Source: Styela clava (taxonomy: Eukaryota > Chordata > Ascidiacea > Stolidobranchia > Styelidae). Taken from it: DNA of 64,000 nt. The stretch's first letter is position 1. Each line of letters begins with the position of its first letter. Below, piece by piece: positions 1,135 through 36,300 of the stretch. The notes beneath the pieces are model-generated. The model worked only from the letters and a program-made list of their open reading frames with translations, did not search any database and was not told where the DNA came from. The stretch lies in the NCBI RefSeq assembly GCF_964204865.1, contig NC_135259.1, positions 13,650,974 to 13,714,973 on the forward strand, written 5' to 3'. The translations under genes were made by a program, and so were the position numbers.

Positions 1135-2941
1135 TTACGTGGATAAATCCATGCAATATGTACAATTTCCTGCCGAAGCGCAGTAGATGTGGCCATTGTG
1201 GCACTTTATCCTTCTCTCAAATATGTTAGGTGCCTTCCTTTGACAAAAAATTTCTTTTTCGTCACATTTTGTTAGAGAGACTCCTTCCACCTACCATAGA
1301 AAATAGTATCTTACGAATATGAAAACTTATTTGTTGCACACAACTAACTACACACTAGGCACACATTAAGTTTTCCAAACAAGCATTCATGTTTGCAATT
1401 AAATCGTGAAGTTACAAATGTCGTTGGATGAAGGAAAGTCACTTATTAGGTCATATGACATACAAACATTATGCGATAAATTGATCATTCCACGCATACC
1501 TTTTATATAACAGATATTCTTTTAAAATTTGTAAGAGACTCGAAAGAAATCTAAATATTACTCACATTAGGCAAAAGATCCTTTAACAGAACATCCTCAA
1601 CAACATCTCTATCGTACAGTTTGTACGATCTTGATGAGTCACCAAGGAGTAGTTTTTTCACGTCAGCAAATGCTTTGCGAAATGACTGTGGTCGACTGAT
1701 TAGATAAAGTGAAAAAAACTTTATTTGAAAAGTGAAAAATTAAACAAATAAACTGTTGAGAATATGAATATATATTTATATTTTTTAGTTGTCAAGTCAC
1801 GACCCATCGCATTCTCTATTCAAAGTAGTTTCCCCAACACTGCCAATAAGGAAAATTTATTGAAACGATATAATTTTGATTTTTCGCTGAAAAAAAACAT
1901 TTTAAGAGCTATAAATTCTATGGAGATAAAATTCTAACTCCCAATAATACCAGAAATCCATTTTGAGTTTCGTAAAAAAATAACCTCTTAAATCCTTCGT
2001 GAATTTTATCACAGAGTTTGAGGAAGCATCCACAATGTCTAATTCTCGATGTCTCGCGTATAAAATCTTCATATTCACTATACGTCCAAATTTCTCGGGG
2101 CAACATTAGCCAGTTGATCAGATCTTTGACATCTTCTTTGAGATCTATATAAAGAAAATTCAATTTCCAAACATAATATTTATTATAAATATTTATATAA
2201 TTTCCAAACGCAATAATAGAATAAATATTTCACACCTTTATCATTTCGAGCCCTGGTACTCTCAAATAAATATAGAAAATTTAATATAAAAAAAATAAAA
2301 TAAATTGCCTTATCAGTTTATATACCTTTCAAAACATCGATGGATTTCCCAGGTATAGAGAGATTTTCAGGCAAAGATGCTAAAATATTGGCCACGATTT
2401 CTAGGTTACAGATTCTTCGCTCGTAGACTCGAATTTTCGAATAGCTATGTTTGTAAATATTCTGTCAAATAATGAATTTTATGAAAGACAACAAAAATAT
2501 TTTCATTAAAGTCCCAGTATACATCTTTAAAAAATTCACAATATTACCGCAGACCGATCTCATTCGTTATCGAGAAGTGTAGACCTCTTGAAATGATTCA
2601 CAGACAGAAGCATAATTTATTACGTGCGTTTTAAATGGTGAATAGAAAATTATTTATTGAAGATATGGTTATGGTTGTTGTTGTTTTATAGTTTTCAATT
2701 TGGCATAAATCCATACGCGACTGAGCAACCATTAATACCGATAAAACCGGATATATATATTATGATAGTCACCTCATTGAAGTCGTAAATATGCGCAAAG
2801 TCATCAGCATCCAGAAAGTCTTTCTCTACCATTGATCCCACAAACTTCAACTTCATCTTAAAAACATTACTCAATACTTGATCCAGATGTATAGATAATT
2901 CGTTAAATTCGTTTATTTCTTCCTTCACCATACGCATATCA
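1135..2941 (-). CDS. ZNFX1: ZNFX1-like gene, exons 25-29 (C-terminus and stop)
   Basis: Exons at 2773-2941, 2326-2461, 1985-2144, 1566-1695 and 1135-1290. Exons 25-28 encode a mostly helical, weakly conserved region. Exon 29 encodes RIKCHNGHIYCASAGNCTYC and the stop codon at 1137-1135. The GHIY core with flanking cysteines matches the RZ-type finger that ends vertebrate ZNFX1 and related proteins, but the glycine-rich CGG loop usually found between the zinc ligands is missing and the finger is shorter. Frame is continuous through all five joins. The exon 27 donor (GTTATT) is weak. Confidence 0.82.
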
Positions 2942-5900
2942 CTGAAATATATCAGAGGAGAAGTTTTTAGAATCACGTTTTTAGAATCACGAATCTTATT
3001 CTCTCGCTGTGAGTAAAATGAAGATTATAAACTAAAATTGTTTCTCGGATTGTTTCAAAATATGAAATTATTAAATCAACAACACTGTATGTGACCATCA
3101 ACGAATTCGTTTCCATTTTTGATTAATGTAGAAGTTGAGCAATGAAATCCATATACACTTATTAATCCATTATGTGAGATTCAAATGCAATATACCTTGA
3201 TATTTTTTTGATGATATTTCCATATCTTGAATTCCTCAATATGGGCTTACTACATTTTGGACACATTTTGTGCTTTAGCTCTGAACCAACCTCCGGGCAA
3301 TCCATCCAAGTGTCGAGTACTTCGCAAGAAAAAATGTGATCACAGTCTTCCAGTTGAATCAGTCTGATCAAAAAATTGAAATCAATGAATATATATAGAA
3401 TAGAATACTAGCCATTTAACGAAAACATAATACCAAGAACTGAATAGAACAATATTTTAATTCAGGAATGAATCAGCAGAACCGACTGAGTTGGTCATAA
3501 AACTTACTGAGAATTCACATTTCCTCCACTTTCCGCAATTATTTTGAGAAAAATTTTTTCATCACAAATAGAGCAAACATCTGGACAAGCTTCTCCACAT
3601 ACACCGCAACATTTGTGATTACATCTCAGTCTTTTTATACACGGTTCGTTGCATCTCGGGCGGTCACATGGTTCACCACAAAGCTTGGTGCATTTATAAT
3701 GAGGACATTGCCATTGACATTGTTTTGCGCATGGGCTGCATGGATACCAACATTCTTTCCTGCATCTGCTATGAGAGCATCTTATTTTACATTCTTCTCT
3801 ACATACAAGGAATTCCGTGCCACACTTTGATTCAATCGAGTGATCACACCACAATATCCGTTTCGTGCATTTCGTGCATGGTAAGTGGAGCCGACCCTAG
3901 TGAAATAATGTTGTGTGAATACGTAAATCAAGACAGAGACTCGGGAGAAATGACATCATGTATGAAATTCGGTGACCGTTAATTTGAACCCATACATTTG
4001 CACCCGTATACCCGCGGGTTTAATCTATAGAAGGGTTGTAAAATCCATGGGTTAGGGTTAGTACGGGTTCAAATAACAGTAAAAAAAATTCGATAGGTGC
4101 AATAGTATGCAGGTGCAATTGTCGTGGGTTCAAAAAAGTACGGTATTAAATTTATTATTACCTGCAAACAGCTTCCACAAGTTCCGCCGCACACGTGACC
4201 GCACTGAAACAATCTGTCACACGAAACTGGACAATGCCTAATTCCTATAATTTCTTCTTTGTAGCAAGGAATTAAAGGTTCGTGTCCACACAAAAGTTTT
4301 ACTGAAATGTTTTGGACATGTTAATCGAGTGTAAAATAAAAATACAAACCACACTACACCGAGGCATGAAAAATAAGTTCGACGAACAATGATATGAAAT
4401 AGAAGACAATTAGCTGTAAAGTACTAATGCAACAGAATGGACGACTTTCCGCTTCCCAAGGGTTTCCGACAACGATGCCGATAAACATACGCCAATTGCG
4501 ATAAACGTCACTGTAGAGCGAGAACTATTTCGCTGAAGAGAATATAAATGCATATCATATATATAGTAGATTTTCTGTGAAGTCGATAGCAATAAGAATA
4601 GATTATATTTAAAAAATACAAGTACTGCTACTCACTTTTTATCTTCTGTTTGCAAATAATATCTCCTGGTGGTAAGTAACACTCGACATCTTGTACGTGA
4701 GCACAATGAGGCACTTTCTGTCAAAAGATCGAATTTATGAAATTATTAGGTGATGGTATGTTTTAATTGAATTATTCAGCACCATTGGATTATTTGTAAC
4801 TTTAATTCAAAATATTTTTGAATAATCCTGTGCCGCCTGTTCCAGTATGTGGCTTTTATTTAACTTTGGGATTGTGTGTACAGCGTATCGAACATCTGAC
4901 CATTTTTAAAACTATTTTGTGAAATTAGGATTATGAAAAACATCCTACATAACCAAAACTAAATAGTAATTCTTACAAAATTCTAATATGATCAGAACTC
5001 AATTGGTTCAATCATTTTCCATGAAATTATCCTACTAGCCGTATTGATTAGGCTTTTCATCAATGACATAGAATCTATCACAGTTTATTCGTTAACGCGA
5101 AAATTGTTTCAGAAAGGTTAATTTCCATTCTTATGGTCGATTTTAAATTGGTACCTTTACAAACAGAATTTAGTCAAGCTTCCTCACAAATAAAGCTCTG
5201 TCTTACTATCATATATATATATATATACTAAGATTGCGTGTTTATCCACTTTTTAGTTTTTCTGCATGGCACAGGTTTAAATGATTATTGCGTAAAATCA
5301 AAATACGACACCATGCACCATGCTATATGGTAAATTATGTTTAGCCACCGTTATATAGATTTTATTTTACGATAAAATTTAAGTTTTGTTCAATATTTAT
5401 AATGGATAACTTACTTTTGGTATCAAAACCTTACATGGCCCACAATCCTCATGACATCTTTTTGTGCAAGGGTGTTTCCTTTCGCACGATCTTGTGCATC
5501 TTTCGTAACACTTGACGTTGTCGTGGTTGCCCGGGTGGCAGTATTTCGTTTTACATGAATGGCCACAGGGCAAACGGGCGTTACATAGATCCATGCAGCC
5601 ACCTATGGAAAGTAAAAAAAGTAGATTTTTTATTTATAAATCCGTCCCATAAGCGATTTATATCAAACAATTCTAGACGTCACGGGGAGTAACATAATTT
5701 TTCCATACTGACTACCGGGTATTACTTTCATGTATCGAAATTACCCGTAATTATTTGTATGGTCACGCTCTGCTGACCACGGGGCACAAATCCAAGTTTT
5801 CATGACGTAGGTTTACACGACAAGGATTGTAGACTAATCATTCACAACTTGCGTTACGAAGAGATTGTCTCAGTATTTGAATGTAGAAGCGTTAGATATT

Positions 5901-8900
5901 ATCAGTAGTATATGAAGTGTAGGCATTAGGTGTGAGTTGTCATAGGCTGAAGTCCTGATTTATTTTAAAGAGTATTCAATATTTCCTGCTGAATAAGGAT
6001 ATATTGTTTTTGTGCTGTTATGATCATTTCAATACAAGCGATGAAAAAAAATTGTTCTAGTATATGTAGCTTATTTGTGATTTGTAAAATAGTTTCGAAC
6101 TAGATTGTCCTATATGCATGCAATCAGCAAAATACCTTCTGGCACGTTGTCGAAGTCTTCAGCATTTTTAACAAGAGTACAATGTTCCGAATGTTTTTGG
6201 CATTTCAGCTCTAGACATTCTCCAATACACCCCGATTGTTCCAATTTTAATGCAATATTCCTCCACAGCTTACTCTTTTCCTTCAGCAACTTAGAGAAAA
6301 TTTGCATATTGTTGAATGCTTGAGTGAATTTTATATACACAGTAAAAACATTTTATCATTTTAAGATTTAAACATTTTCATGATTCCAATTTATTCGTAA
6401 GGTTTTGCTAGATGTTAACAAATCAATATTTTGTCTATTTTTGCTGCGAACTAATGACCATTGGCTATGGAATAATGCTTTGTGCGTAGTTATATCCAAT
6501 CTTTTATCAAAGTTGCTGTCACTGCAAGCTCGAAAAAAGCAAAATCACGTAATCCAACTATTATGTCTATCAACTTATAAACAATTTGACTTTTGGTCCA
6601 CCTAATAGAATATAAATATTGCCATATTTTTGACTATTCTTGAAGGTAAAAACAAGATTAGAAACACTGAGTACCTCTATATTTCCGATGCAATAAAAAG
6701 CATTCCTAGCACGAGAAAGTGCTACACATATTCTGTTTTCAATCCGAAGAAATCCAATGTTCCCCTGTTAGAAACACGAGCTTTATGCGTTATTCGAATA
6801 GAAGGTGATTGAGTTGCAAGCAAAACATTTGAATTTTATACATCGACGATCATAATACTCTACTTGTGCATAAATTAACAAATGAATCAATCAAAAAATT
6901 TAACACCGGGAAATCACTTCAAATAAAGTCAGGAGTTGATGACATGGAAACTGGGAAAGATGTGATAATTGTAAAAAATACCAACGTGAATGCTGCGTCT
7001 GTTCCGCGTCGAAGTTGACTTTCAAGTCTCGTGTTAACCACTATATACCTCAATTGCAGGTATTGTTAAGTATATATCTTAGCGCGCCAATCATTTCTTG
7101 TAACCATTTACCAGTACTTGTTCCGATCTACTGGAGGCCTAAAAGCACTGTATTTAATAACTTTACCTCGGAATTACTTCTAACTAGAGACAAGAGTATG
7201 ATGTCATTTTCTTCTCCTTGGTATCCATCGACTGGCGTCACTTTAACATCTTTGCATGAGTTATCTAGAACCGAACGGAATGCCGATATCTGTCCATCGT
7301 ACATAGCCAAGATTGTTATTTGTGCTGGTTTATACTGTTGTTGTATCAAATATTTACAAAGTCTCGCTAAAAAGTAGGCTTCAAACTTGTTTTTTTTACT
7401 TTTTCCTTCTAACATGTTTTCTTCCGGAATGTTGTGCGACACAAGGAACACTGATTTAGTGAAACCTCTCATATTTTCCCACCCGTTCCTTTTTGAAACA
7501 CTGGAGTGATCCTGCAAATCGGAGTAAATTTGTGGCCGTAACAAATCAGCAATCAATGGTTGCATGCGATGTTGCGTTGAAAGTGTAACGTGTCGTACGT
7601 TTTTAATCATTCTTTCAAAAAGCGATATCTCCAGCTTATACTTCTTCCCCAATTCGTACACCGCTGGAGAAGGCTTAAGTTGTTGATGATCGCCTATCAA
7701 AATCAGATGCTGCGTAGTTTTAGGCAATGCAGTAACAATGTGAGCTTCCAGAACTTCTGCTGCTTCCTCCACAATCACAATTTTAATAGGAAGGCGATTG
7801 ATTAGTGATCTATACTTTGCAGCTCCTGTCGTTGTTAGAGCAATCACATCACGACTTTTTACAATTTCTTCATCCTCATCCTCACGAAGCTTCGTCAAAT
7901 CCTCCAGACTGTGTGTATTCTCCGCCAAAATATTGTCGCGATTGATTCGTTTTTTAGCACGCCATTTCTTTACCCAGTTTCTATAAATTAGTGCATTTAG
8001 ATCAATTTAGAGAATTATTTATCTTTGTAGTAATATTACATAATGGGTTTGCAAAATAAATGAGTAATCTGTATACCTGTACAAAGACCATCTGTCATCA
8101 GGTTTAAGTGCATGAAGATTGTGGACATTGCCAACTTCATAATCATTCATTGACGATGTTTTGTCAAGCTGCCTTTGAATTTTTTGTATATCGCGGCGAT
8201 CATTCGATTGGGCCTCATGCAGCATCTTTCCTAGAAGAAAGGACATGAAATGAGCTTTACTAATGTAGACTCGAAGCGGCTCGGGTCAATTAAATGAAAT
8301 GTTTAGGGATTTTGAGCGATTGCCAAGTGCCTATATAACTTACTTAATTATACACATAACTTACTGAAAACATAGATCCCATCATTCAATTATGTCGGTG
8401 AGCATTTAAACATCCCCGAGAAACATGTTTAAAGAATAACTAACTAGGAAAAACGAGTCATTGTAAAAATAATTTTTAGTCATTGTCCGAATTGCATTGT
8501 AAAAATATGGCTTCAATAATTAAAATTGTAAAATTCACCCGAACTCTAGCGGATTTGCAACCGCGATTTGCAATTTTTATATTTTACAAAGTTTTTAATC
8601 CGCATTTCATCGCCATATTGAGATAACTTGCGTATATACGTTACGTAGGTTGCATGGATAGCGCAAGCCGGATTTTCTATGGTAAATGATTACAACGTCA
8701 CGAGGACGCGCTAATTGTAGTTATGACAGCTTTTGTCATAAGATAGGGCTTTTCCCGCCCTAAAAAATGCAAAGAGTTACTTCTTATAGAGACAGGACTT
8801 ATTTACAGTATAATCAACCCAGCCACAATGATCATAATAATACTTTTATTATTTGAAAGTCTCGAATTTGTTTTCAAAATTGAGTGATAATGTCGAGCAT

Positions 8901-11900
8901 TGGCATCTTCTTGAGCTTTCTAATGAACAGAAAACGAAATTCAAAAATACATTTTATATATATATTTATTTTATATATGCAATCAACTATGAAAACTATA
9001 AAATTCTTGACCAATTTAAAATCGGTGAAAAAACTTACAATTTCGACTTGAAGAAATTACAAATACATATATAAAATAAAAGTAATAACTTACGTAGGAT
9101 ACCAGTATCTACCGAAAGATACCTTGATTTTAATTCATCAATATATCCGTCATCTTTTTTGTTTCCAGACTGTCTGCCACGAAAACCTAAAAGACGAATT
9201 AAATTAATTATAATAAATGTAGATATTTATATTTTGCTATTTAATGACTGACTTTTGTTGTTAAATCGATAAAAAAACTGTGATAAAAAAATTACTACCG
9301 TATTCTAAATGTCTTCTCTCTTCAATAATTGACGATTCATCCATAATATGAACATGTGCAGGCTTTCTTTGGTCTGTAAATGTGGTATTTGAAGCGTTGA
9401 GAACAGAACAATGATTTTATAAAATTTGTATAATATTTTCTAAAGCGGCTTAATTATTAAAATAATGGACTATGTTTCATATTTTAATAGGACTTGCCTT
9501 TTTGGTTACTTGACGATCGCTTCCAATCTTGGAGACGTCCTATCACGTGAATTGGCATTCCAAGCCAATGTAGAAGTGATGAATCCCTAGTATCCCCGGC
9601 TGAAAAATATCGAATTTAGACTTCCGTTTCGTTTATTGACCTATTTTTGTACATTGAAGTGCTACCGAATAGAAGTGATCTCTCCAAATTTCTATTTTCG
9701 CCTTTAGTTTTAATTTTCTTTCTAATGTTTGATGGCGATAATAATCCTATCCTAATGAAAATCTATGTGGTGAAACAATTTTAATTGAAGTCGGAAGTAA
9801 TAATTCACCTAATCACAAAATGAATTTTGCATAGCTTTCAAGGAGACTTCCCATATTCGAATACTGAAAAATGATCTTTATATTGAGGAACTATATATGT
9901 CCAGTAGTAAAAGGGAAACGCAATTTTTGTTTACACAAGATTATCTACTCCACACGGTCACCAGTCGCCACCAACGACAACATAAACATAATTTAGCCAA
10001 AAGATTACTAGGTCCATTTTTTAAAAGTTGGTTTAGGGTTGTGACTTAAAATTATGTTGCCATTCACAACTAGGAGCAAATGCTTCGCCATTATGCTATT
10101 TTCAGAAACTGTGCGACGTGAACAAATTACATTTTTACATTCTGTGGCCAAGTTTTTAGAGATAATCTTCACAGGAACACATATGATTGTTTTACATACC
10201 CTCTACGAATCTATCTTTCAATTATACCGAAAGAATTAGTTTTTTTTTTTCAAATGCCTAAAAACGGATATTAGATATTGAGTCTTCAGAAGAAGAATAT
10301 TAGTAGATCATAAAGAAGTATGGTAGTCCTAAAGACCGTACATCAGGGGTCGACAACCTACGGTCCGCGGGCCGGATCCGGCCCGCGGAGTAACATAATC
10401 CGGCCCGCGACGCTTCACAGAATAGTAACAAAACAGCTGTTTTGACGATTATATCTTTCATGGTATACAATTCATTGCGAGACGCGTTTAGACTAAATTA
10501 TAATATAATCTAACAACTATAAAATTCACAATTACTCGTTTAATGAGCCTAATGGCAACAAGACGCAGAAAAGTTGATGCTAAGTGCAAAGGGTTCAATG
10601 GCGCCGAAAATGCAATACAATGATTACAATAGAATATTCTATTCGAGAGATTTATCGCCGCTTTTTTTTAGTATAAAAAGTATCATCCTTTCGGTTTTCA
10701 ACTTTCTAAAAATATGTGCTGCCCGCTAATGACTTGCAACCCTTATTTTGGCCCGCGAGCGACAAAAGATTGCCGACCCCTGTCGTACATAAATGACATA
10801 TATACGTGTAATATTCCTTTTGATAAGCATGCAAGCAACCGGCATGGAGTTCGGAAAGAAAGGGATATTTTGTCTCGAAAACAAAATAAACAAAAAAATA
10901 GTCAAATATGATACATGTACTAATTTGTAACGAAGAAACCTGTTTTGCCAAGCCTTGCTCAGACTCAGACTAAAAAATGCTCTTATTAAAAATTTTGATT
11001 TTTTTCATTCCGAACTGAAAATTCAAACATCTTTGGAAGTATGTATCTATTCGCTATAATAAAGTAATAGACACAAAATTTCACGTTCTCTGTACTGACA
11101 TAACTGGGTGTAAAGAACACCAGGAATAAATTCTTTGAGTTGATCGACTTTCAGCACACCTCGAAGAGAAGCTTCCATTTGAAAAGTACTTTTTCGAAAA
11201 ATATTCTCGCCATTCTTTAGGCTACCTGCAAAATAAAAAGTAATTTTTAGAGAACTTTTAATGTGACAAAGCGTGTTTTTGCTTTACGGCCAAATAACAA
11301 AGTTTCTATGTCTTGAAATTGCTGATCCCAATCTTTAATATAACGAAACAGGCGAATGCAATTGAATGAGGTTCTAAATGATTTAAAGACGGGAGATCAA
11401 TTTTATCATTTTTTTTTTATATATACTTGTGTATACCGAATTACAGAAGTTTCTGTTTAACAAGTTATTACTTGCAGAATAACAATACATTTACAGCAGA
11501 AAAAATTTAACAAAAGAATCTATATCAAATTAATACCAACCTAGAGCAGAACCAATTGGCTTCTTGAATCGAGAATTCTTTTTAGTTTCCATTTCTTTTT
11601 TAATAGATTTAAGAGTATATTTTGCAACAATGTCGCTGCTGCAGCCACCTCCTATTCTTATAATATTTTTGCAACATTTTTCAATATTTTCCACAAATTG
11701 GTCGAGTGCATGATTTGTGCGGCATACGACCAAAATAGGAGAGTGGGACTCATGGCCTCTGAAATTAAACAAAATCAAGTTTTGATATATCAAAATATAG
11801 CCTACATCAAATAACCATTTACAGCATCTTTACTATGCTTCAATCAAAAAATATTTCTTTGAAAAGTACATAATGTGAAAAGTTGGATAATATATATAAC

Positions 11901-14900
11901 AAAATACATTGGTGGAATTTCATTTTGTAATATTTCAATGGTATATGAGTCAATGCCTCATTCTGAAAATTGAATAAAAAATGATACTTGGTAGCAAACT
12001 GTATCAAAAGATATCTATTGTCACACTGTATTTGAAAATAGTAAGTGTGAAAAAAAAGTTCAACACACTGATTGATGATTGGTTGATTTTACTCAGTCAA
12101 AAATTATTCAATAAATATTCTGACTTCTTTAGATTCGCTCTTGAATCACGCAACTACCCCTTATATTAACTTACCGCCACTTTTTTGCATTAGCTAGTAG
12201 AATTTCCATGATTTGCACACCAACGTGTGTCTTTCCTGTGCCAGGTGGGCCTTGTATAACGGCAAATTCTTTTGTCAAAGCCAATTTCAATGCATCTGCT
12301 TGTACTTGGTTGAGGTTAAGCTTACTTGCATCGGGCCATTTACGATCTTTCAGCAGTCGAACCTTTTTCCATTTTTGTTTAACTAGAGAGAAATATGCGT
12401 TAGTCTTTCTAACGAAATAGGAGCAGGAAGTTATGTCAAATTATGCGTATTAGATTAATTCTAATTTCTTCTCCATATGAGATTTTCCAAAGCTAGGTTA
12501 CTAGCCCTCAACTTATGATGGAAAGAGTTGCAATCACAGACAGGATGGAGACCGTGATTATTCTTGATGTCATTACAAAAACATTAAAAAAATACACGTT
12601 ATATAGCAAATTGATTCCAAAACATGAGATTTATGGTGTCATATAACATAATATGTATATACTAGCAGTAATTTGTAATTTCTTACTTCCAACCTTTGTT
12701 GTTCATTCTTGGTTTGCTCTAAATGAATTCGCGTAAAAATAATAAAAAATCAACTTTTGTACGCATGATAACTATCTAAAGATGTTATTTCTTCCTAGTT
12801 TTAATATTGAATGAACTAGATACCTCCGGTTTTATCTTCGCCTGAGGAATTGGAACAATATGTCTTGATTCTATAAGATGTTGATTTTTTCATGTACTCC
12901 GGGCGTTTCACGCGTTTGGAGCATCGGACAATATATCTATCCAAAGGAACCGTTTTTGTTTCTGAATATTCAAACAAGAATATATCTTTAAGTAATATTA
13001 ATATTTTCATGGTGAAAATGGACCGTTCATTTTTTTTTATGAAAACAACGTCCTGTAGGCGGATAATAGGGGCTCCACTCATACCCATCTCATCCATTTC
13101 TCTCTCAATGTCTGTGTTTTCTATGATATGGTATTTCAGATTGAAATTGTGCTGCGTTCGAACTTTTTCAAGCTTTAAATAATTTTTTTCGTCAATTACT
13201 TTTTTAGTTAACAAAACCACAGCAATCAATCTATTTTCTTCCGGTAAATTTAATATTTGCTAAAACTTGTAATTTTTCTACCTCAAGTTTACCTTTCAGT
13301 GTCGACAGCACATGTGTATAGTCTTCAAAATACGATTCCGATTTAATCATAGTATAAGTCGCATTGTAATCAACATTATCTTTAATCCTTACTAAAATAA
13401 AAATAAAATTATAAGATTAGCAAATTAGGATGTCCATCCATAACATGAAAACAGTAGAATAACTGAAGCCTTCTTAAATTTAAGTGAGAATTAAATCGGA
13501 TGATCACCATGGAGTTAAAAATTGTAACTCGGTTTCGCACCTCAAATGTGATATTGAATGACAAGTGTGACTGGAAATTAGAGATTTGAATTGATGAGAA
13601 TTCAGAATTCGAAAGATGAGACCTCAGCACGTTCTAATATCTTTTCTTACAGAGATGAAGGAAAATGGTGTACACGGGAAACCATTTAGTTTCGCCCCAC
13701 TCAAAAATCACACAGCACGGTGTAGCACGCGGAAGCAGGAATGGCAATTTATGTATGTTCCATTTCACCCGGTAATCCTCCATAGAATGGCTATGTTTTT
13801 TATTTATTTATTGAACTATTGTCTCACCGCAGAATGATTGAAAGTATATGAGAATAAATCCAAATACCTCGGAATGTAAAATGTATAAAAAGCTAGACTA
13901 GCTCTCACTTCGCCATGGAAAGTAAAGGTCTGTCGTTCCAATCCAATGGTAATAATAATTAAAAACTAAAATAAGAAATTTTGATCAGAATTTATTTGAG
14001 CTTGTCTCGGAAGATGGTTTAAAAATTTCAGTTGGATTTGTCTGTTGTTAGATATCCTAGTATACAATACTACATTGGTTATATTAGATTTGAATTCCAT
14101 GATTATATATACCGCATATTTATATAGGCTATTAAATGTTACCCGTTGTCATGGTTCGTGAATTCCGCACAAATGGTGGAAATATATTGTACGGATTGTT
14201 TGATTCATTTTCGTAAAGCATTTTTATCGACAATAAACCTTCGACCAAGTCTTTTGGATTTCTATCCACAACCACAGCAAATAAGAGAACTTTCTGTAAT
14301 AATGAAGAAACAATAACTGAAATTGGCTGAGCTCTATCTCCAGTGAATGTCCAGTGAACTGAAGATGCAACATTGAGTAAAAAGTTAACATACCTCAAAC
14401 TTATCTACAGTCTTTGATAGGCAGAGCAAGTCTCCACTGGATAATCGTTTCGTATTTGTCCACAATATATCTTTGAGATTTCCAGTGCTGAATTTAACTC
14501 TATATAATAAACCTGTAAAAGTTTATTTGACTCCAAGTGTTTATATAGATCGTTTTGTTAAAATTTGGTTGCGCCTCTGGTGCAAAACTGAATTGTTATA
14601 TTTGAAATTTAAGTATCGTGTGGGCGTTTCATAGGAAATCTAAATGTCATTTGTTGATTCAGATCAGATCAAACTTATTACTTACAGATCGAAGAAGCTG
14701 CTTGAAATCTTATTGTTTTATTTTTGTTCAGATTTTTTCAGAGTCATATGAATTCTTAAGTTTCACTTAGACTTTCGCAGTTTTATCTTGATTCATGTGA
14801 ACGTATAGTATTTTTCCTCGATGCTTGACAGCGACGTCACGCCGCCCTTCATTTTGGATTGCTTAGCCTCATTCCAGTGCGATTCGCATAGTCTACCGGA

Positions 14901-17900
14901 ACTGTAGTTAAGCTAGTTATTGAAATTTGTGATTTCTCATATGCATATAATATGTCATTATATAAATTTTAAGATAAGTTCTCGTTTTCATTCATACAGG
15001 ATGTAGGTTATACAAAATGCAGATTTGCAGTTTTACCTTTCATAGTTGGTTTGATATAAGCAAACTGAACACCCGTATAGTATTCCACTTCGGAATTACT
15101 GCGTCGGCAACCTAAAAAAATGAATATAAACTTCCAGAAGTTAGATGTAGAAAGTATGTATAACCCTTTGCTTATTTAAACAATTTGTGCACCAAACGTG
15201 GGCACGGTGCCTAGTCCATAATATCTGTGTTAGAGTGGTAGGATAAAGACCATGCGGTCAGTCAAACCCTCGGCCAGAGTTTATGGAAAATTGAAAATGG
15301 TTGAGCAATGTCAAACCGTAAATAATTCGTTTATTCTGAAATAGTGTATTTTCATATATCGATGCTTCTGGAATTTTGTTTGGGAGACAAGTCTGAAAAC
15401 ATCCATAAATCTCAGTTTTAATAAGTCAATATTTGACGACACTGTTATAGCATATTTATGTAGACTTTTTACACTGAGTTCCTTGAATTGATTATGATGC
15501 AATACTAGAAGAAGTGACGTTTGCCTTGCTTAAACCGTGCTGAATTAGGTTTTAATTATTTAAGCATTGTTTAAAAATGACATTTGTCCGACTGACGTAT
15601 AACCAGATCAGATTAATAGTCAGTGTGTCAGCTCGATACAGACAACAATAACTTGGTAAGCATTTTCTGACAAGTACACCCTTGCCTTCTTAATCTGCTC
15701 TTGTGTGGTATTAAATTGTATATTCATTACGTATATATCATGGAAGGTCCTCGACAATCACCACAGATAAGCATCTACAATATACCAAATTCCAATCTGT
15801 CACAAAATTTGGCTCAACTCTTACCACCGGTAATTTTGCGAATCCCATCTCTCAACGGCCGTATATAATCTTCTCTCATCAGTCGAAACTGAACATCCAA
15901 ATAATGTTCATCACTGAAGTAAATTATTATTTAGTATTAATATAAATTAGGAAAAAGGGGAAAGTATTCCGATCAAAATTGTAACTAACTTTCACAATGC
16001 TTTATTTTGTTTTCAGAAGAAAATATTTCGAAAACAACCAATGCGTTTCAAATCCGGAATCCCTGACAAAATATATATAGGCTATGTATTGTTTTTATTG
16101 TTGTTTTTGTTATTAACGTTTTCTATTATTATTTTGAAACACAAAAGTATTTTGCTAATTTTTCATTGAGCGTTTAAATAAGTTCACTACGAGTATTAGA
16201 TAATTTTTTGATAGTGGCCAAACATAAAATACCATCATTCCCCAAATACTCCACATTACATGCGCAACAATAACAAGTACTTCGAAAATGGGATTCTTAG
16301 CTCCCGCTAGGGAAACTCGCACTCTGGCTTTCAAATATTGTAATGTGTATACCAAATACAAAGTACTATATGTGTATTTTCTCCGCAGAAACAAAATAAA
16401 CCGATTCAAAGAGAAAGCACATGACGGATAAAATATCTCAGTGCAGCAAAATTGAGAGATTCTATATTTTTACTTCATTATTGGCGTCGCATTGTACGAC
16501 TGAAAATCATCTTTGTCATCTATTTCAGTAGGCAAGTCAATTTCAGTATCTGTCAAATTCTCAGTTTCGTTTTCGGATGAACTGAAATAAACATGATAAA
16601 ACAATCATGTGAATAGTATTCTATGCAATGAGAAATACCTGTAACTAAATCATTGTCAAAATCAATAGTTTCATTGTTGAAACTCTGTTTGTTGTTATAA
16701 ACGGAGACTATATAAACCCAAAATTTGGGACTTGAATAAAAAATATAGCCCAGGTGCTGAATAATTCGCATTTGTCCTGCTGTGGTTTGTTTCGTCAACC
16801 TTTGCCTCAGATGAGCTAAAAGAGGGGGTCCTTATAGTCAGGTTTATTTTTCTAAATGTAAATCGCAAATAAAGTTGTTGGGCATGGTATTAGTTATAGA
16901 TGTCCATCCATAACATGAAAACAGTAGAATAACTGAAGCCTTCTTAAATTTAAGTGAGAATTAAATCGGATGATCACCATGGAGTTAAAAATTGTAACTC
17001 GGTTTCGCACCTCAAATGTGATATTGAATGACAAGTGTGACTGGAAATTAGAGATTTGAATTGATGAGAATTCAGAATTCGAAAGATGAGACCTCAGCAC
17101 GTTCTAATATCTTTTCTTACAGAGATGAAGGAAAATGGTGTACACGGGAAACCATTTAGTTTCGCCCCACTCAAAAATCACACAGCACGGTGTAGCACGC
17201 GGAAGCAGGAATGGCAATTTATGTATGTTCCATTTCACCCGGTAATCCTCCATAGAATGGCTATGTTTTTTATTTATTTATTGAACTATTGTCTCACCGC
17301 AGAATGATTGAAAGTATATGAGAATAAATCCAAATACCTCGGAATGTAAAATGTATAAAAAGCTAGACTAGCTCTCACTTCGCCATGGAAAGTAAAGGTC
17401 TGTCGTTCCAATCCAATGGTAATAATAATTAAAAACTAAAATAAGAAATTTTGATCAGAATTTATTTGAGCTTGTCTCGGAAGATGGTTTAAAAATTTCA
17501 GTTGGATTTGTCTGTTGTTAGATATCCTAGTATACAATACTACATTGGTTATATTAGATTTGAATTCCATGATTATATATACCGCATATTTATATAGGCT
17601 ATTAAATGTTACCCGTTGTCATGGTTCGTGAATTCCGCACAAATGGTGGAAATATATTGTACGGATTGTTTGATTCATTTTCGTAAAGCATTTTTATCGA
17701 CAATAAACCTTCGACCAAGTCTTTTGGATTTCTATCCACAACCACAGCAAATAAGAGAACTTTCTGTAATAATGAAGAAACAATAACTGAAATTGGCTGA
17801 GCTCTATCTCCAGTGAATGTCCAGTGAACTGAAGATGCAACATTGAGTAAAAAGTTAACATACCTCAAACTTATCTACAGTCTTTGATAGGCAGAGCAAG

Positions 17901-20900
17901 TCTCCACTGGATAATCGTTTCGTATTTGTCCACAATATATCTTTGAGATTTCCAGTGCTGAATTTAACTCTATATAATAAACCTGTAAAAGTTTATTTGA
18001 CTCCAAGTGTTTATATAGATCGTTTTGTTAAAATTTGGTTGCGCCTCTGGTGCAAAACTGAATTGTTATATTTGAAATTTAAGTATCGTGTGGGCGTTTC
18101 ATAGGAAATCTAAATGTCATTTGTTGATTCAGATCAGATCAAACTTATTACTTACAGATCGAAGAAGCTGCTTGAAATCTTATTGTTTTATTTTTGTTCA
18201 GATTTTTTCAGAGTCATATGAATTCTTAAGTTTCACTTAGACTTTCGCAGTTTTATCTTGATTCATGTGAACGTATAGTATTTTTCCTCGATGCTTGACA
18301 GCGACGTCACGCCGCCCTTCATTTTGGATTGCTTAGCCTCATTCCAGTGCGATTCGCATAGTCTACCGGAACTGTAGTTAAGCTAGTTATTGAAATTTGT
18401 GATTTCTCATATGCATATAATATGTCATTATATAAATTTTAAGATAAGTTCTCGTTTTCATTCATACAGGATGTAGGTTATACAAAATGCAGATTTGCAG
18501 TTTTACCTTTCATAGTTGGTTTGATATAAGCAAACTGAACACCCGTATAGTATTCCACTTCGGAATTACTGCGTCGGCAACCTAAAAAAATGAATATAAA
18601 CTTCCAGAAGTTAGATGTAGAAAGTATGTATAACCCTTTGCTTATTTAAACAATTTGTGCACCAAACGTGGGCACGGTGCCTAGTCCATAATATCTGTGT
18701 TAGAGTGGTAGGATAAAGACCATGCGGTCAGTCAAACCCTCGGCCAGAGTTTATGGAAAATTGAAAATGGTTGAGCAATGTCAAACCGTAAATAATTCGT
18801 TTATTCTGAAATAGTGTATTTTCATATATCGATGCTTCTGGAATTTTGTTTGGGAGACAAGTCTGAAAACATCCATAAATCTCAGTTTTAATAAGTCAAT
18901 ATTTGACGACACTGTTATAGCATATTTATGTAGACTTTTTACACTGAGTTCCTTGAATTGATTATGATGCAATACTAGAAGAAGTGACGTTTGCCTTGCT
19001 TAAACCGTGCTGAATTAGGTTTTAATTATTTAAGCATTGTTTAAAAATGACATTTGTCCGACTGACGTATAACCAGATCAGATTAATAGTCAGTGTGTCA
19101 GCTCGATACAGACAACAATAACTTGGTAAGCATTTTCTGACAAGTACACCCTTGCCTTCTTAATCTGCTCTTGTGTGGTATTAAATTGTATATTCATTAC
19201 GTATATATCATGGAAGGTCCTCGACAATCACCACAGATAAGCATCTACAATATACCAAATTCCAATCTGTCACAAAATTTGGCTCAACTCTTACCACCGG
19301 TAATTTTGCGAATCCCATCTCTCAACGGCCGTATATAATCTTCTCTCATCAGTCGAAACTGAACATCCAAATAATGTTCATCACTGAAGTAAATTATTAT
19401 TTAGTATTAATATAAATTAGGAAAAAGGGGAAAGTATTCCGATCAAAATTGTAACTAACTTTCACAATGCTTTATTTTGTTTTCAGAAGAAAATATTTCG
19501 AAAACAACCAATGCGTTTCAAATCCGGAATCCCTGACAAAATATATATAGGCTATGTATTGTTTTTATTGTTGTTTTTGTTATTAACGTTTTCTATTATT
19601 ATTTTGAAACACAAAAGTATTTTGCTAATTTTTCATTGAGCGTTTAAATAAGTTCACTACGAGTATTAGATAATTTTTTGATAGTGGCCAAACATAAAAT
19701 ACCATCATTCCCCAAATACTCCACATTACATGCGCAACAATAACAAGTACTTCGAAAATGGGATTCTTAGCTCCCGCTAGGGAAACTCGCACTCTGGCTT
19801 TCAAATATTGTAATGTGTATACCAAATACAAAGTACTATATGTGTATTTTCTCCGCAGAAACAAAATAAACCGATTCAAAGAGAAAGCACATGACGGATA
19901 AAATATCTCAGTGCAGCAAAATTGAGAGATTCTATATTTTTACTTCATTATTGGCGTCGCATTGTACGACTGAAAATCATCTTTGTCATCTATTTCAGTA
20001 GGCAAGTCAATTTCAGTATCTGTCAAATTCTCAGTTTCGTTTTCGGATGAACTGAAATAAACATGATAAAACAATCATGTGAATAGTATTCTATGCAATG
20101 AGAAATACCTGTAACTAAATCATTGTCAAAATCAATAGTTTCATTGTTGAAACTCTGTTTGTTGTTATAAACGGAGACTATATAAACCCAAAATTTGGGA
20201 CTTGAATAAAAAATATAGCCCAGGTGCTGAATAATTCGCATTTGTCCTGCTGTGGTTTGTTTCGTCAACCTTTGCCTCAGATGAGCTAAAAGAGGGGGTC
20301 CTTATAGTCAGGTTTATTTTTCTAAATGTAAATCGCAAATAAAGTTGTTGGGCATGGTATTAGTTAGCCAGTTATTTGTTTTAGAAAGCATGGAATTGAT
20401 GGTGGAGGAAGCCACCAGCAGTTACGTGAACCAAACTATCGCGGCAACCCTAACAATCCTCTGGTTCATAACTATTCCCGCATGAGATCCGAACCCACGC
20501 AGGGTAGTCAGAGGTGCCGCTTAGAGCGATGCACACCCGCCGAGTAACAGAGTCGAATTTTCCAGCTTTTCGGAGCCGGGGATCGGAATCAAAGTTCTGA
20601 ACACTTGGGATTTAGAATAGATTAAAATTGAAACAACAGGTCCTGTAGTGATTATCATATTTTAATGAATACAACATTTGCATTATTGAAAATTTTACCT
20701 ATCGAAAGAGGTAGTGATCTATATGAATGTAAAATTAATCCACGAAAAAAACTTTCGGGAAGTAAAAAATGGTAATCTGCGTGTTAAAAATTACTTATTT
20801 TCATGAATGTGATTACGACCTGTTATTGCATGGATTCAAAATCTTGGAATCACACTTTCTAAGCTTTTTAGGAGGCTCTTCATCACTTATAATTTCTCCA

Positions 20901-21182
20901 GCAGATAATCTGTGATAAAAAAAACACTATAAACGCAATAATACTGTACAATACCATGCTATAAGTGTACTTTTTTCAGGTTCAATTTTTCCAAAATTTA
21001 ACCCCTATATATACAACATTTACATACAATATTGTATACATTTGTATATTACAACATTTCAAAACCAAATAGCATGCCAATAATGGAAAAAAAAAATTAT
21101 ACTCGGTTGATATTTACCGTTCCTTGGCTGAGACCGTATCGACCTCCAATGAATTGCATTGAGGCATAGACAAATCATCCAT
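1135..21182 (-). CDS. ZNFX1: ZNFX1-like SF1 helicase with NFX1-type zinc fingers (29 exons)
   Basis: Reconstructed from 29 exons whose splice sites and phases agree and whose summed length, 4,701 nt, gives 1,566 residues plus stop. Order seen: short acidic N-terminus, the ZNFX1 pre-helicase region, a helicase core with GPPGTGKT (about residues 356-363), Walker B VEEAA (about 712-716) and motif VI SRAR (about 930-933), then a cysteine/histidine-rich NFX1 finger array (about 995-1260), and a final RZ-like finger. Family members bind RNA and act in small-RNA inheritance or antiviral sensing in animals; that role is inferred. It is shorter than human ZNFX1 (about 1,900 residues), mainly at the N-terminus. 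Introns hold a hAT element, and exons 3-7 lie in a tandem duplication. The exon 12 donor is uncertain. Details are in the block entries. Confidence 0.93.
3196..6289 (-). CDS. ZNFX1: ZNFX1-like gene, exons 19-24 (NFX1-type zinc fingers)
   Basis: Exons at 6136-6289, 5415-5602, 4636-4717, 4162-4301, 3508-3896 and 3196-3363. Exon 19 gives the post-helicase linker KLWRNIALKLEQ and a first Cys/His pair. Exons 20-23 encode repeated units such as CGHSCKTKYCHPG and CGHVCGGTCGSC, the spacing typical of NFX1-type fingers that coordinate zinc. Exon 24 encodes IQLEDCDHIF and CPKCSKPI, a conserved block after the array. All joins keep frame. Confidence 0.93.
5211..5227. repeat. AT microsatellite
   Basis: A short run of alternating A and T inside an intron of the ZNFX1-like gene (between exons 20 and 21). 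Confidence 0.85.
6675..7980 (-). CDS. ZNFX1: ZNFX1-like gene, exons 17-18 (helicase core)
   Basis: Exon 17 (7167-7980, 814 nt) is the longest exon and encodes most of the second helicase half: VEEAAEVLEA (Walker B, with Glu in place of the usual first Asp, as in the family), GDHQQLKPSPAVYELG (motif III), STQHRM (motif IV region), and VDGYQGEENDIILLS (motif V). Exon 18 (6675-6764) adds NRICVALSRAR, motif VI. With the Walker A in exon 10, all SF1/UPF1-type ATPase motifs are present and intact, so the helicase should be catalytically competent. Confidence 0.95.
8077..9599 (-). CDS. ZNFX1: ZNFX1-like gene, exons 13-16 (inter-motif region)
   Basis: Exons at 9498-9599, 9299-9373, 9094-9186 and 8077-8230. 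They encode the segment between helicase motifs I and II, including HWLGMP and a charged stretch ending RWSLYR, which is the ZNFX1-family approach to the second half of the helicase. Exon 13 ends at a GC donor (AAG then GCAAGT), the usual form of a rare GC-AG intron. All phases agree with neighbours. Confidence 0.88.
8474..8520. repeat. Short dispersed repeat, copy also near 46104-46140
   Basis: A stretch of about 45 bases around TTGCATTGTAAAAATATGG recurs near 46104-46140 with few changes. Part of its complement also appears in the repeats near 59795 and 62140. It is probably a fragment of a transposon family present several times in the window. Confidence 0.45.
10344..10782. mobile_element. 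Non-autonomous hAT-type element in a ZNFX1-like intron
   Basis: A 439-bp element with terminal inverted repeats beginning CAGGGGTCGACAACC and ending with the complement (GACCCCTG), followed inside by runs of cGGCCCGCGG. It is flanked by an 8-bp target duplication, ccgtacat on the left and tcgtacat on the right (7 of 8 match). Length, TIR type and 8-bp duplication fit the hAT superfamily. No transposase frame is present, so it would depend on another element. It lies in the intron between exons 12 and 13. Confidence 0.9.
11085..13391 (-). CDS. ZNFX1: ZNFX1-like gene, exons 8-12 (Walker A)
   Basis: Exons at 13293-13391, 12824-12961, 12175-12382, 11541-11758 and about 11085-11225. Exon 8 holds the family-typical YFEDYTHVL segment. 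Exon 10 holds the phosphate-binding loop GPPGTGKTHVG, and exon 11 begins the next helicase segment with LVVCRTNHALDQF, the motif Ia region. Phases match across exons 8-11. For exon 12 the acceptor is clear, but three in-phase donors are possible between about 11070 and 11100; 11085 is used here because it keeps the frame into exon 13. Confidence 0.88.
13429..16896 (-). repeat. Tandem duplication copy 1, with ZNFX1-like exons 3-7
   Basis: First unit of the 3,470-bp duplication. Exons 3-7 lie at 16474-16581, 15825-15913, 15037-15111, 14394-14512 and 14143-14293. All splice sites are intact. It adjoins exon 8 (13293-13391), so its left edge is the ancestral flank on that side. At the inner junction two bases (16897-16898) match neither parent flank. 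Exon 7 leaves phase 1 whereas exon 3 needs two preceding bases, so exon 7 of copy 2 joined to exon 3 of this copy shifts frame and stops after nine codons. Confidence 0.93.
16899..20366 (-). repeat. Tandem duplication copy 2, with ZNFX1-like exons 3-7
   Basis: Second unit of a 3,470-bp direct duplication; no base difference from 13429-16896 was noticed in the stretches compared by eye. On the minus strand it holds exons 3-7 at 19944-20051, 19295-19383, 18507-18581, 17864-17982 and 17613-17763. These encode an acidic linker, then the family-typical pre-helicase region (motifs YLDVQFRLMREDY and RNPKDLVEG). The right boundary falls inside a SINE that continues beyond 20366, so this is probably the ancestral flank. 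Exon 2 splices in frame to this exon 3. Confidence 0.93.
20351..20545 (-). mobile_element. tRNA-derived SINE, copy 1 (partial)
   Basis: Shares with 50775-51070 the blocks TTAGTTAGCCAGTTATTTG, GAACCAAACTA, and a GATCCGAACCCACGC box that is the complement of a tRNA B-box promoter. It is therefore a minus-oriented SINE. The left part is missing or diverged, and the tandem duplication boundary cuts through it at 20366. It sits in the intron between ZNFX1-like exons 2 and 3. Confidence 0.75.
20820..21182 (-). CDS. ZNFX1: ZNFX1-like gene, exons 1-2 (start codon)
   Basis: Exon 1 is 21118-21182 and begins at ATG (21182-21180), reading MDDLSMPQ. Exon 2 is 20820-20909 and carries an acidic stretch followed by a basic PPKKLRK patch that could be a nuclear signal. 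The exon 1 to 2 phase (two bases then one) restores an arginine codon. Exon 2 ends at a weak donor, GTCGTA, but its phase fits exon 3 exactly. The region is poorly conserved in the family, so the start is supported by splice phase rather than homology; an additional untranslated exon is possible. Confidence 0.7.
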
Positions 21183-23689: not shown

Positions 23690-25730
23690 TGTTTTATTTG
23701 TCATCACAAAAAACAAGCATATAGAAAACTGTTACAACAAAAGAAATACACTGATCATGTTAATTGTGTGACCGGAATTGCGAGGGACCTATAGAGGCCT
23801 TCACGCAGCGACCCCTAGCTGATGCAGGTTAGTATAAAAAGTAACTAAATGAGACACAACTACTGAATACCAGTAGTTGTGGCAGTATACATAATTGAGG
23901 CTACTGTGCAAATTATTTAACAAAATAAATATACAACCATCACGAGAGAATGCACTGAAGAGAGAAAATGGGAGGACAACAAGAAAAAATAATATAAAAC
24001 TTAAAGAGAATGCAAATTTGGCAAATGTAAAACTAAAAAACCATGGAAAACGAACAATAAGTTCAAAATATTTCTAACAAGTACAATTTTGAAAGTTTAT
24101 ATACAAATTAAAAAGAGGGAAAATTGCCACTCTAATCAGGTTACAGCAAAGAATATATTGCAAACAACACCGGTCTATTATGGTGTATAAAACTTGCAGT
24201 AAGGGAGATGAAACATGACATAGAAAAACTTGTCATAAAATTTGTAAATATAGGCAACACTGTCGAGTACCGGTACGTACTTCAATGGTTATAAGAAGAG
24301 TGATAGTTGCTGATGTACTTATCATTCAGATTGTTTTAAACATACCATACAATAGCGATCTAATGGCATTAGGTAAAACATTCCAGAGCTTCACATCCAT
24401 ATATTTGGTTGACTTCTGTGTTCTGCTTGACGAGTTCCTTTTGACGTGGAATGAACCTGACGAAGCTGATCTAGTGGAATGGGAATGGATATTACTCTGC
24501 TTGCTAAAAATTTCAGTGAATACTATAGGACGTTTACCATCAAAAGATTGGTGCATGAGTTTCAATATCTCGATTTCATGAATATGACAAAGTTTAACTA
24601 TGGTGCATCTGTGGTATAAAGGGTCAAGTCTAGACCGAAATGGTGCACAGCTCGGACTGCTTTTTGCATTTTGCAACACCTCCAATCTTCTAAGGAAAGT
24701 TGTTGAAGCGCTACCCCATGACATGATACCATACTGTAGATAAGACTGGAAAAGTGAAAAATGGACCATTTGAAGAGCTGGCATGGTAAGAAATTTTCTG
24801 AGTGTAAATAATATTCCGGGAGGACGGGCCAGCTTTCCAGCGATGTAGTTAATATGTGTGGCCCATTTTAATTGGTCATCAATATAGATGCCTAGGTATT
24901 TATAAGAGTTGACATTTTCAAGCTGAGCTTTATCAATGCTAACCTGAGAGTTTGAGTTTTTTCTTTATTTTGGGGGCTAATCAATAAGCATTTTGACTTT
25001 TCAATATTTATTGTGAGCTATTACTGGTCATCCAAGTTGCAATTTTTTGCATTTTACAGTTCATATGTAATTTCAAATCAACTAATAAAGCTGAACTTGC
25101 AAACAATTCGGTATCGTCAGCAAAGTGTTTGACAAGCGGCGTTTTAGTGGCGTCAGGAAGATCATTGACAAAAAGGAGGAACACCAATGAGCCAATTATC
25201 GAGCCTTGCGGAATTCAGTTGCAAGTTCGGAGGAACTTGATCCGATTTTTACACACTGCTGGCGAGAACTCAAATAGCTCTGGAGAAATTTTAGCGCATG
25301 ACCGCGAAAACCATAGTGACTCATTTTTCTGATTAGTATGCTATAATCAACGGTATCGAACGCTTTTTTGAGGTCGAGAAATATGACACTAATGTATTCC
25401 CTCTCTAACCGGTCATAAAAGTAAGTCATCATATCTAAAATTGCATGATTAGTAGAGTGCTTCTTCTGGAATCCAAACTGAGATTTGTTTATAATACTAT
25501 GTCGCTCTATGAATTGTGTTAGTCTAGCATGTAAAAGTTTTTTGAATACTATAGTCGATGTAGAAAGGACTGATATTGGGCGATAATTAGATGTACTTTC
25601 CCTATCGCCAGTCTTATAAACAGGTGATACTTTGGCGATTTTCAAACTATCAGGGAAAATTCCATGGTCTATAGAAGTCAAGACACGATACAAAAGAATA
25701 GTTTGTCAGTCAAGACATGCGATGTTCAGC
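23690..25730 (-). mobile_element. 5'-truncated LINE (L2/CR1/jockey-like) with degenerate reverse transcriptase
   Basis: Minus-strand reverse-transcriptase motifs are clear: NYRPISVLS, FLDLKKAFDTVDY, and the active-site FADDTE (near 25110). Downstream come KYLGIYIDDQLKW and a C-terminal segment with YGIMSWGSAS, the post-RT region of L2/CR1/jockey-type elements. The frame is broken near 25196 and elsewhere, so the copy is dead. The 5' portion (endonuclease) is absent. The 3' UTR, around 23690-24280, is shared with 48225-48700. Confidence 0.88.
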
Positions 25731-30068: not shown

Positions 30069-30217
30069 GGATAGGATTTACATATTTATCCCGGGGGAGA
30101 GGAAAGTCGATAAGACGGCTTAATTATATGGCGAACCATGGCCTCTCGTCCGGTTACCAGTCCAGGACGGGTATGGGATTAGTTAGCCAGTTATTTGTTT
30201 TCGGAAGCATGGACTTA
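30069..30217 (-). mobile_element. tRNA-derived SINE, copy 2 (tail half)
   Basis: Contains the family blocks GATAAGACGGCTTAA, GGTTACCAGTCC, and GGGATTAGTTAGCCAGTTAT. It stops just after CATGGACTTAAATG, lacking the tRNA-like half, so it is a truncated copy. Confidence 0.75.
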
Positions 30218-33387: not shown

Positions 33388-36300
33388 GTAGGAATTGTAA
33401 GCTTAGAGATTAGGCCTAAACTCATACCATTGTTCAAGTCGACAAATTCATCAATACTAATACTTAGGGTTACCATATTTTTGGGACTTCAAATCAGGAC
33501 GCCTCAAAGGCAACAACCCATTAGCTGTGATTTTGTAACTTCACATTTTCCGATTTTACTACATAGGCCTATATTCCTACATTTAAAGCTGTCTCGGCTG
33601 TCTGTCATATTGTTATCAAAATTTCATGCGCTTATTGTTTGTCTAAATATCGGGTTCAGTTCGAAAACTAGGAAGGAATTGACGTTAACGATACCGGTAC
33701 AAATGATTCGAATTTAGAATAATTAGTATTGGTTTTATATGCGATACGTCTGCCATCAATGGGAATCAGCAGGAAACGAACGCATTCACCTTCAGTAAGA
33801 AGGCTAACGTTGCGCTACACAGAAACAACAGTAACATGAACATGTTTGTGTATTATGCTGGAAAAGTGAGACTTTTGGCTGACTTATCGGGACGGCGGCA
33901 CAAAACGCTGAAAAGTGGGACTGTCCCGCCTAAAGCGGGACGTATGGTAAGCCTACTAAAACTGTATTCATTGAAATATTCACTTTTAATTCAGGATGTT
34001 TATTGGATATGCAAACCAACTGATTTGTCAAGGGGACGTGGAATTTTTGTGTTCAAAGATTTGAAAGATCTCAATTATGACTGCCCTGTGATAGTTCAGA
34101 AATATATCAGCTCACCATTACTTATTTCTGGATATAAGTTTGATTTGAGAATATATGTCTGTGTTCCAAGTTTTCATCCTCTCACAATTTATATTTATCA
34201 GGTGAGTAACAAGTAGTTGTTATTTGACTAGTATTTGAAGGTAATTACGGAATATGAAATCATATCATATTGTCGTATAATTTGAGTCTTTTAACCTTTG
34301 ACCTTTAACTGATTCTGATTGAGTTTTGAAAATATTTCTAGCTCGAGTCCCTCCATTCCTACTCATTGTAAAATGATTCTTTCTATTTACAGGAAGGAAT
34401 TGTTAGATTTGGAACAGATAAGTTTGATCTTGGACAGCTAGGGAATGTTTTTTCACATTTGACAAATACATCAATAAATAAATATGGTCCCGCATACTCA
34501 GCAGATAAAGAACGAGTGGGTCCTGGATGCAAATGGACTCTAACCCAGGTAAATCTTGTCTAAGTTGTGTTCAAATTGAATCATACTTTGCATATTTAAT
34601 CATTCCCATAACTTTAATCAGGCGTTTTGGCATCTCTGCTTTGGGGAGGCGTTTTTGAAGGCGAGAGGATTTGGCCCCAACCTATTTTGCAATGTTGTTT
34701 TTGGTGGTCATGCTCAACTATCAACCAATTGCCCATGCTGACTTTGATAAGATATTGTTTTTTTTTCTGATTATAGCTGCGACACTTTTTTCGACAAATG
34801 GATAATGTGGACGAAACTTTGTTGTGGCAGAGAATAACAAATATAGTTGTTTTAACATTGGCAACGCAAGCTCCTACAGTTCCAAAATCACAAAGCTGCT
34901 TCGAATTATTTGGTTTTGATATTCTTATTGATCAAAATTTCAAGCCATGGTTGTTGGAGGCAAGTAAACAATAAATATAACTTATTATATGAAATACAGT
35001 ATTTTTTTTCTATAAGCATAAATTGTAATTTGTGTGATATCATAGATATGAATAAGTTTATTATAATATATACTCATCTTTTCAGTTTAACTACTGCATT
35101 GATTTTTCTATATCTCTAAAAAATGCCTACCTTCAGTTTGTGAATGTGGATACATTGGTCTATTATCACATGCCAAAGATCCCAGGTTCAAATCCCATGC
35201 CCACCACCTTAGTGTAATAAACTGGGTAGGCAATTGCGATTGGAAAGAACCCAGTTGTAATAAAATATAGTACTTGCCTACATAGAGCCTTATCCATAAA
35301 TAAAAAATATAGTTGTTTTGTTAGTAATTCCACGACATTTTGATTCTGACAATTTCCATGAAATTTCACAAAGTAGGGTTCAAATTTGTGAAAAAAACTA
35401 TCGTTCTTCATATTCGTTAGGTGAATTTCAGTCCAGCGTTGAGTATGGATTGCCAGGCAGATTTCATAGCGAAACATTCGATGCTCAATGATCTAATTGA
35501 TCTCCTTAACTTCAAAGGTATTCTATTAATGTTTACTTCTCTTAATAACTAGTCCTAGTTTTGTTTAGAATACTAATAAATCATTAAAATGCGATTCAAT
35601 CACAACTAAATTCAAATTTATATTTAGCAGGTGACGCTGAAAGAGGTGGAAAATCTTATCGGGAATGTAGGAGTCCATCACCCACGTACAGCACGCCACG
35701 AAGGTTAGTCTGTTTGTGTTTAATGCAAAACAACTCAGCATATAAGTAAGAGTATTGTTGAGTAAATGTAGAAAAGTTTAGGATTTTTATTATCCATTAA
35801 TTAATAAATTACCCTTTAACTGGTTTATGTAATTATTAACTATATATAAACTATTCACTTTTTTGGCGAACGCGGTTCTATCAGTGAACAGAGTGTACCA
35901 ATATAATGTGAAATTTTGCTCTTTACATGTGGTCCTCAACACTCAGGGTAAGTTTTAAGAGAGAGAATAGTTGAAACTTTAATGGCTCGTAACATAAAGT
36001 ATCTGTTCTACTTCCCGATTAAAGTAAGAAGTATTCTTCTTTATGATTATTTCTGTTTTTTTGCATTTGTCTCACTCTCAGACACCAGGTCATTGCATTT
36101 TCTTCAAAAAAAATATTTTTATGCATTGATATCTCTTGATGTTGCCATAGTGATGAACTTATAGTTGAATGATTTATTATCTTTTTGTCAAAAACAACAT
36201 GTGTATCATATTCAACCACGTTTTAGATATGAAAGAAATAGCCAACGCAAATCTTACGTACGAAATGATAGTTCATCCAATTCTACATCTTCCAATTCCT

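Follow-up and report, generated by a model that had tools for sequence, protein, structure and literature searches.

As assembled, a ZNFX1-like gene on the minus strand carries a 3,468-bp unit with five of its exons twice in tandem, identical to the base, and on our gene model translation through both copies runs into a stop. We read the locus as most likely a very recent frame-breaking duplication, nearly as likely an assembly error made within one haplotype; that it is a duplicated gene that works seems unlikely.

Two identical copies and a single derived junction

In the window, by which we mean the whole 64-kb stretch of DNA that was analysed, positions 13429-16896 and 16899-20366 form a maximal exact match, with 3468/3468 positions identical at an offset of 3470, and chance is ruled far out as its source. 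The initial annotation had described a near-identical tandem duplication whose copies look identical, and it is confirmed to the base. The window holds 0 N bases, hence none at the junction between the copies. The remaining direct-repeat families reported in the window (60 nt or longer) have lengths of 69-152 nt and are 72-95% similar, Tandem Repeats Finder contributes just short or diverged arrays, and Rfam gives no match in the whole window at gathering thresholds. Near the window's right end lie two diverged direct repeats, 59667-60039 and 62007-62265, separated by about 2.3 kb.

The edges of the unit give the junction a polarity. An in-window search (E up to 1e-3) placed the right edge inside an interspersed repeat: 20346-20495 resembles 50875-51030 (74%), 20350-20397 resembles 30169-30216 (90%), and 20361-20413 resembles 42056-42107 (79%). 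As background, of 200 random 100-mers the 20 that started at 13001-20599 were set aside, and 13 of the other 180 had a further match in the window (E up to 1e-5). The repeat copies at 30169 and 42056 are unbroken across the point matching 20366/20367, and the one at 50875 lacks four bases there; at 16896, the repeat ends after about 20 bases. Because the repeat continues across 20366/20367 and stops at 16896, position 20366 still has its original right flank, and 16896 is a derived end. We take the left edge, 37 nt from the exon 8 acceptor, as original as well. Both outer flanks thus look ancestral, and the middle join is therefore the one derived junction, made by one duplication event or by one misjoin. 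Recombination mediated by a repeat at the two edges was considered and rejected, as no repeat is common to both at E 1e-3; in the window, a left-edge query (12900-13700) matches only the unit's other copy. The severed repeat is a member of a short interspersed family with a core of about GGGTATGGGATTAGTTAGCCAGTTATTTGTTTT.

Table 1. Window positions of the repeated unit, its junction and the exons of the ZNFX1-like gene
Feature	Positions	Strand	Remarks
Unit copy 2 (5' of copy 1 in the gene)	16899..20366	-	exons 3-7, flanked by the end of intron 2 and the start of intron 7
Unit copy 1 (3' of copy 2 in the gene)	13429..16896	-	identical to copy 2
2-nt filler TA	16897..16898	.	sole derived junction, between the copies
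Interspersed repeat cut by the unit's right edge	20346..20495	+	other copies near 30169, 42056, 50875
Exon 1, proposed start	21118..21182	-	splice signals and frame only; homology support absent
Exon 2	20820..20909	-	weak donor GTCGTA (rank 26/27); splice signals and frame only; homology support absent
Exon 3	copy 1 16474..16581, copy 2 19944-20051	-	108 nt; carries 2 in and 2 out; homology support absent
Exon 4	copy 1 15825..15913, copy 2 19295-19383	-	89 nt; model and 9q9z alignment
Exon 5	copy 1 15037..15111, copy 2 18507-18581	-	75 nt; matched ZNFX1 domain begins here
Exon 6	copy 1 14394..14512, copy 2 17864-17982	-	119 nt; ZNFX1 domain
Exon 7	copy 1 14143..14293, copy 2 17613-17763	-	151 nt; ZNFX1 domain; carries 1 out; donor rank 22/27
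Exon 8, single copy	13293..13391	-	accepts 1 carried base; acceptor 37 nt from the unit's left edge
Exons 9-27, same gene	1985..12961	-	SF1 helicase (AAA_11, AAA_12) and Cys-rich region; all open; 3' end incomplete

The gene with the repeated unit is a relative of ZNFX1

We built the gene model by eye from minus-strand translation and splice signals, which yielded 27 exons from 21182 down to 1985 (Table 1). With the unit used once, this 3'-incomplete model gives 4391 nt with 0 stops, an openness that is partly by construction, the exon edges having been picked to keep the model open. Exons 3-7 of this hand-built model fall within the unit, in line with the five doubled exons of the initial annotation. 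Proposed exon 13 (9498-9599, minus strand) has a GC donor (AAAAAG/GCAAGT), a rare splice type, and precedes the only GC-donor intron in the model.

As judged by homology, the gene is a ZNFX1 relative. In the single-copy model protein, the Pfam ZNFX1 domain PF25396 scores 73.5 bits (cut-off 27) over residues 122-214, a part encoded by exons 5-7 and hence inside the duplicated unit; the open frame of exon 7 alone reaches 16.9 bits, under that cut-off. The same protein matches AAA_11 and AAA_12. For the large helicase exon, the closest solved chain is 9q9z (NFX1-type zinc finger-containing protein 1) with 269.7 bits, and the next PDB match is a UPF1 relative with 74.8 bits, a gap of about 195 bits (24 distinct PDB sequences matched). 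Model residues 91-442, from exon 4 into exon 11, align collinearly with 9q9z, which supports the joins 4-5, 5-6, 6-7 and 7-8 and those on to exon 11. An open stretch of about 100 codons at 12962-13259 (minus strand) was rejected as an exon and falls within intron 8, because the 9q9z alignment crosses the exon 8-9 join leaving no room for it; the frame holding this stretch and exon 9 has no Pfam match.

The gene thus shares with ZNFX1 (PF25396, 9q9z) the ZNFX1 domain, the SF1 helicase core and the collinear alignment, and as far as searched it appears to differ from ZNFX1 at both ends. Only about 90 model residues precede the homologous segment, and a thin search for an ARM-like region before residue 90 (two upstream open frames against Pfam, one of them also against the PDB) returned no match. 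Toward the C terminus, exons 20-24 are Cys-rich as judged by eye, but Pfam finds in the model protein no NFX1 zinc finger, RZ finger or other zinc-finger family at E 1. A stretch near 1.2 kb (1138-1290, minus strand) reads KCHNGHIYC, which we take to resemble the RZ-type finger of the ZNFX1 C terminus; it has no zinc-finger match in Pfam.

PMC11959080 presents three proposed roles of ZNFX1, sensing of double-stranded RNA (dsRNA), regulation of mRNA stability and inhibition of the NLRP3 inflammasome, and reports that its Caenorhabditis elegans homologue acts in the inheritance of small-RNA defence. The dsRNA-sensor model described there is based on mammalian ZNFX1, whose binding of poly(I:C) required the ARM domain plus the NTPase domain (PMC11959080). 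The initial annotation had spoken of a putative RNA-sensing gene, and our analysis sharpens the identity to ZNFX1-like and leaves the sensing weaker than claimed: since poly(I:C) binding needed ARM and our search found no ARM region here, to call this gene an RNA sensor would be a guess from kinship.

Elsewhere in the window, two neighbouring genes lie on the plus strand, one of the tubulin-tyrosine-ligase type (TTL, 33707-34213) and one for a nucleoside hydrolase (IU_nuc_hydro, 57690-59492). On the minus strand, 49113-50101 holds a pair of frames resembling FAD-binding monooxygenases, below the Pfam cut-off, and 25199-25705 together with 24329-24964 form a remnant resembling a non-LTR retroelement, the former with an RVT_1 match and the latter with no credible Pfam match.

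Reading through both copies would break the frame

Exons 3-7 total 542 coding nt, which leaves a remainder of 2 on division by 3. Exon 7 carries 1 base out and exons 3 and 4 each need 2, the phase clash that the initial annotation had pointed out for exon 3. On the model, exon 7 of copy 2 joined to exon 3 of copy 1 reaches a stop nine codons on, again as that annotation had it, 79 nt before the next exon junction; joined to exon 4 of copy 1, it reaches a stop eleven codons later. Since both joins end in a stop, the frame break is independent of exon 3 and its lack of homology support. By the usual rule, a premature stop 79 nt before an exon junction makes the mRNA a target of nonsense-mediated decay.

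Splice sites were ranked with a leave-one-out matrix from the gene's own sites, and, with sites chosen by eye, the ranks are weak evidence both ways. The acceptors of exons 3 and 8 rank 1/26 and 3/26, and the donors of exons 7 and 2 rank 22/27 and 26/27. The hybrid intron that would separate copy 2's exon 7 from copy 1's exon 3 is 1,031 nt long, with a GT donor that scores below the gene's average and the top-scoring acceptor. Skipping one exon set would mean splicing over more than 4.2 kb (spans of 4238 and 4221).

As the initial annotation reasoned, a copy is skipped, the allele is broken or the assembly is wrong; this trichotomy is correct, and the sequence by itself does not choose among the three.

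A possibly real and very recent duplication

Our leading reading, to which we give an even chance, is a real, very recent, frame-breaking tandem duplication of 3,468 bp inside the ZNFX1-like gene, probably still polymorphic. End joining with a 2-nt filler would have made it, with one breakpoint 37 nt short of exon 8, in intron 7, and the other in intron 2, within the interspersed repeat. The primary transcript would then hold exons 3-7 twice, and the default mRNA should take both exon sets, because the hybrid intron has a GT donor and the gene's best-scoring acceptor. Inclusion of both sets would shift the frame and bring in the stop nine codons later, and the resulting mRNA would be degraded or would yield a 241-residue fragment without the helicase.

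The exact identity of the copies and the N-free junction argue for this reading. The outer flanks, in looking ancestral, do so too, but an unmerged overlap in the assembly would look the same. Because the rest of the gene looks intact with one copy across 27 exons and 4391 nt, in a model whose openness is partly by construction, base quality seems good and the lesion appears young. Zero differences put the divergence of the copies below 0.087% (95% bound), so that, if real, the duplication would be younger than about 43,000 to 433,000 generations (assumed mutation rates of 1e-8 to 1e-9). Frame-shifting intragenic tandem exon duplications are a common class of structural variant, and the locus resembles them in its one derived junction, intronic breakpoints, small filler and identical copies; it differs in being known from assembled sequence alone.

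Several observations count against a real duplication. Zero differences are equally expected from a false duplication within one haplotype, and the right edge interrupts a repeat after about 20 bases and an AT-rich tract adjoins the left edge, repeats and AT-rich tracts being places where contigs tend to end. The exon 7 donor needed for the broken join ranks low, but the normal 7-8 join uses the same donor. A frame-breaking allele is also less expected because ZNFX1 is described, from vertebrate and human data (PMC11959080), as being under purifying selection.

A possible error of assembly

It is distinctly possible, at somewhat less than an even chance, that two pieces of one haplotype that overlapped were placed end to end unmerged, or that a gap was filled from both sides, which would leave an exact false copy and two stray bases, and that the gene is single-copy and intact. 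Our weighing of this reading against the real allele is a judgement and not a computation. An artefact would fit the open model obtained with single-copy use, and it would fit the edges: the piece ending at 16896 would stop about 20 nt into the interspersed repeat, and the piece starting at 16899 would begin at the point that, at the original site, adjoins the AT-rich tract. Against it stand the absence of any gap between the copies and the fact that assemblers normally merge exact overlaps of 3.4 kb.

Zero differences also speak against the commoner, heterotype form of false duplication, unless the locus is nearly homozygous: the chance of 0 differences between two haplotypes over 3468 bp is about 3e-8 at an assumed heterozygosity of 0.5% and about 1e-3 at 0.2%. 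According to PMC9516828, false duplications are recognized by depth at half or less, a gap separating the copies, and discordant pairs; heterotype cases show haplotype-specific differences or k-mers, and homotype cases show no differences, very low depth and often a gap between the copies. The heterotype form was set aside, as 0/3468 positions differ; for the homotype form, differences are absent as expected and the gap is absent too. False exon gain by duplication error, as treated in PMC9516828, likewise places an adjacent copy of part of a gene where it spoils the gene model, but here the copies follow each other without a gap and show no differences specific to a haplotype.

Possible splicing around the duplication

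A real duplication might instead be tolerated, with splicing using one copy or a mixture of exons from the two, which we consider unlikely. The reading draws on a test, carried through exon 10, of all 1024 ways to include or omit the ten exons: 52 are open, and 13 of the 52 contain every exon from 3 to 7 in one copy or both, which bears out the initial annotation's proposal that mixed use of the copies can stay in frame. Seven of these 13 use exactly five exons, and one of the seven has its exon 5 behind exon 7. No stop is met through exon 9, the end of the tested paths, when exon 7 of copy 2 is spliced to exon 5, 6 or 8, and the donors of exons 2 and 7, weak for this gene, count for the reading too. 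The longest open pattern repeats exons 5-7; by skipping exons 3-4 of copy 1, it would give an in-frame protein with 115 additional residues and a second ZNFX1 domain. However, identical copies offer the splicing machinery no difference except position and edges, and skipping a set requires the splice of more than 4.2 kb to pass the gene's best-scoring acceptor. It is very unlikely, in our view, that the locus is a newborn five-exon duplication, caught before divergence and functional by copy-skipping or mixed-copy splicing, for which the in-frame product with two ZNFX1 domains would be possible.

Tandem exon duplications that feed mutually exclusive exons resemble the locus in having a coding stretch in two tandem copies; they differ in that here five exons and not one are doubled, the copies are undiverged and the case is known at the level of DNA. 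A mutually exclusive exon cluster fits poorly, as diverged copies are expected of one and divergence here is zero. Extremely improbable, finally, is a promoter inside the duplicated stretch that drives copy 1 and the downstream exons from an internal ATG to yield an N-terminally shortened helicase, although an ATG does lie at the end of exon 3 (model residue 87), just before the conserved segment, and every downstream model exon is in frame with it.

Meaning of the locus

Whether the frame-breaking duplication is real or a product of assembly, the locus gives us no new kind of gene but either a mutation of very recent date or a mistake in assembly; either is ordinary, and neither outcome alters existing knowledge of ZNFX1. 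If the duplication is false, the locus is a warning that the assembly's gene model is wrong at this place. If it is real, it would give a natural allele of a conserved animal helicase of the antiviral type, one that has lost function or is rescued by splicing, with zero divergence between the copies, and would be useful for learning how cells treat identical exon arrays.
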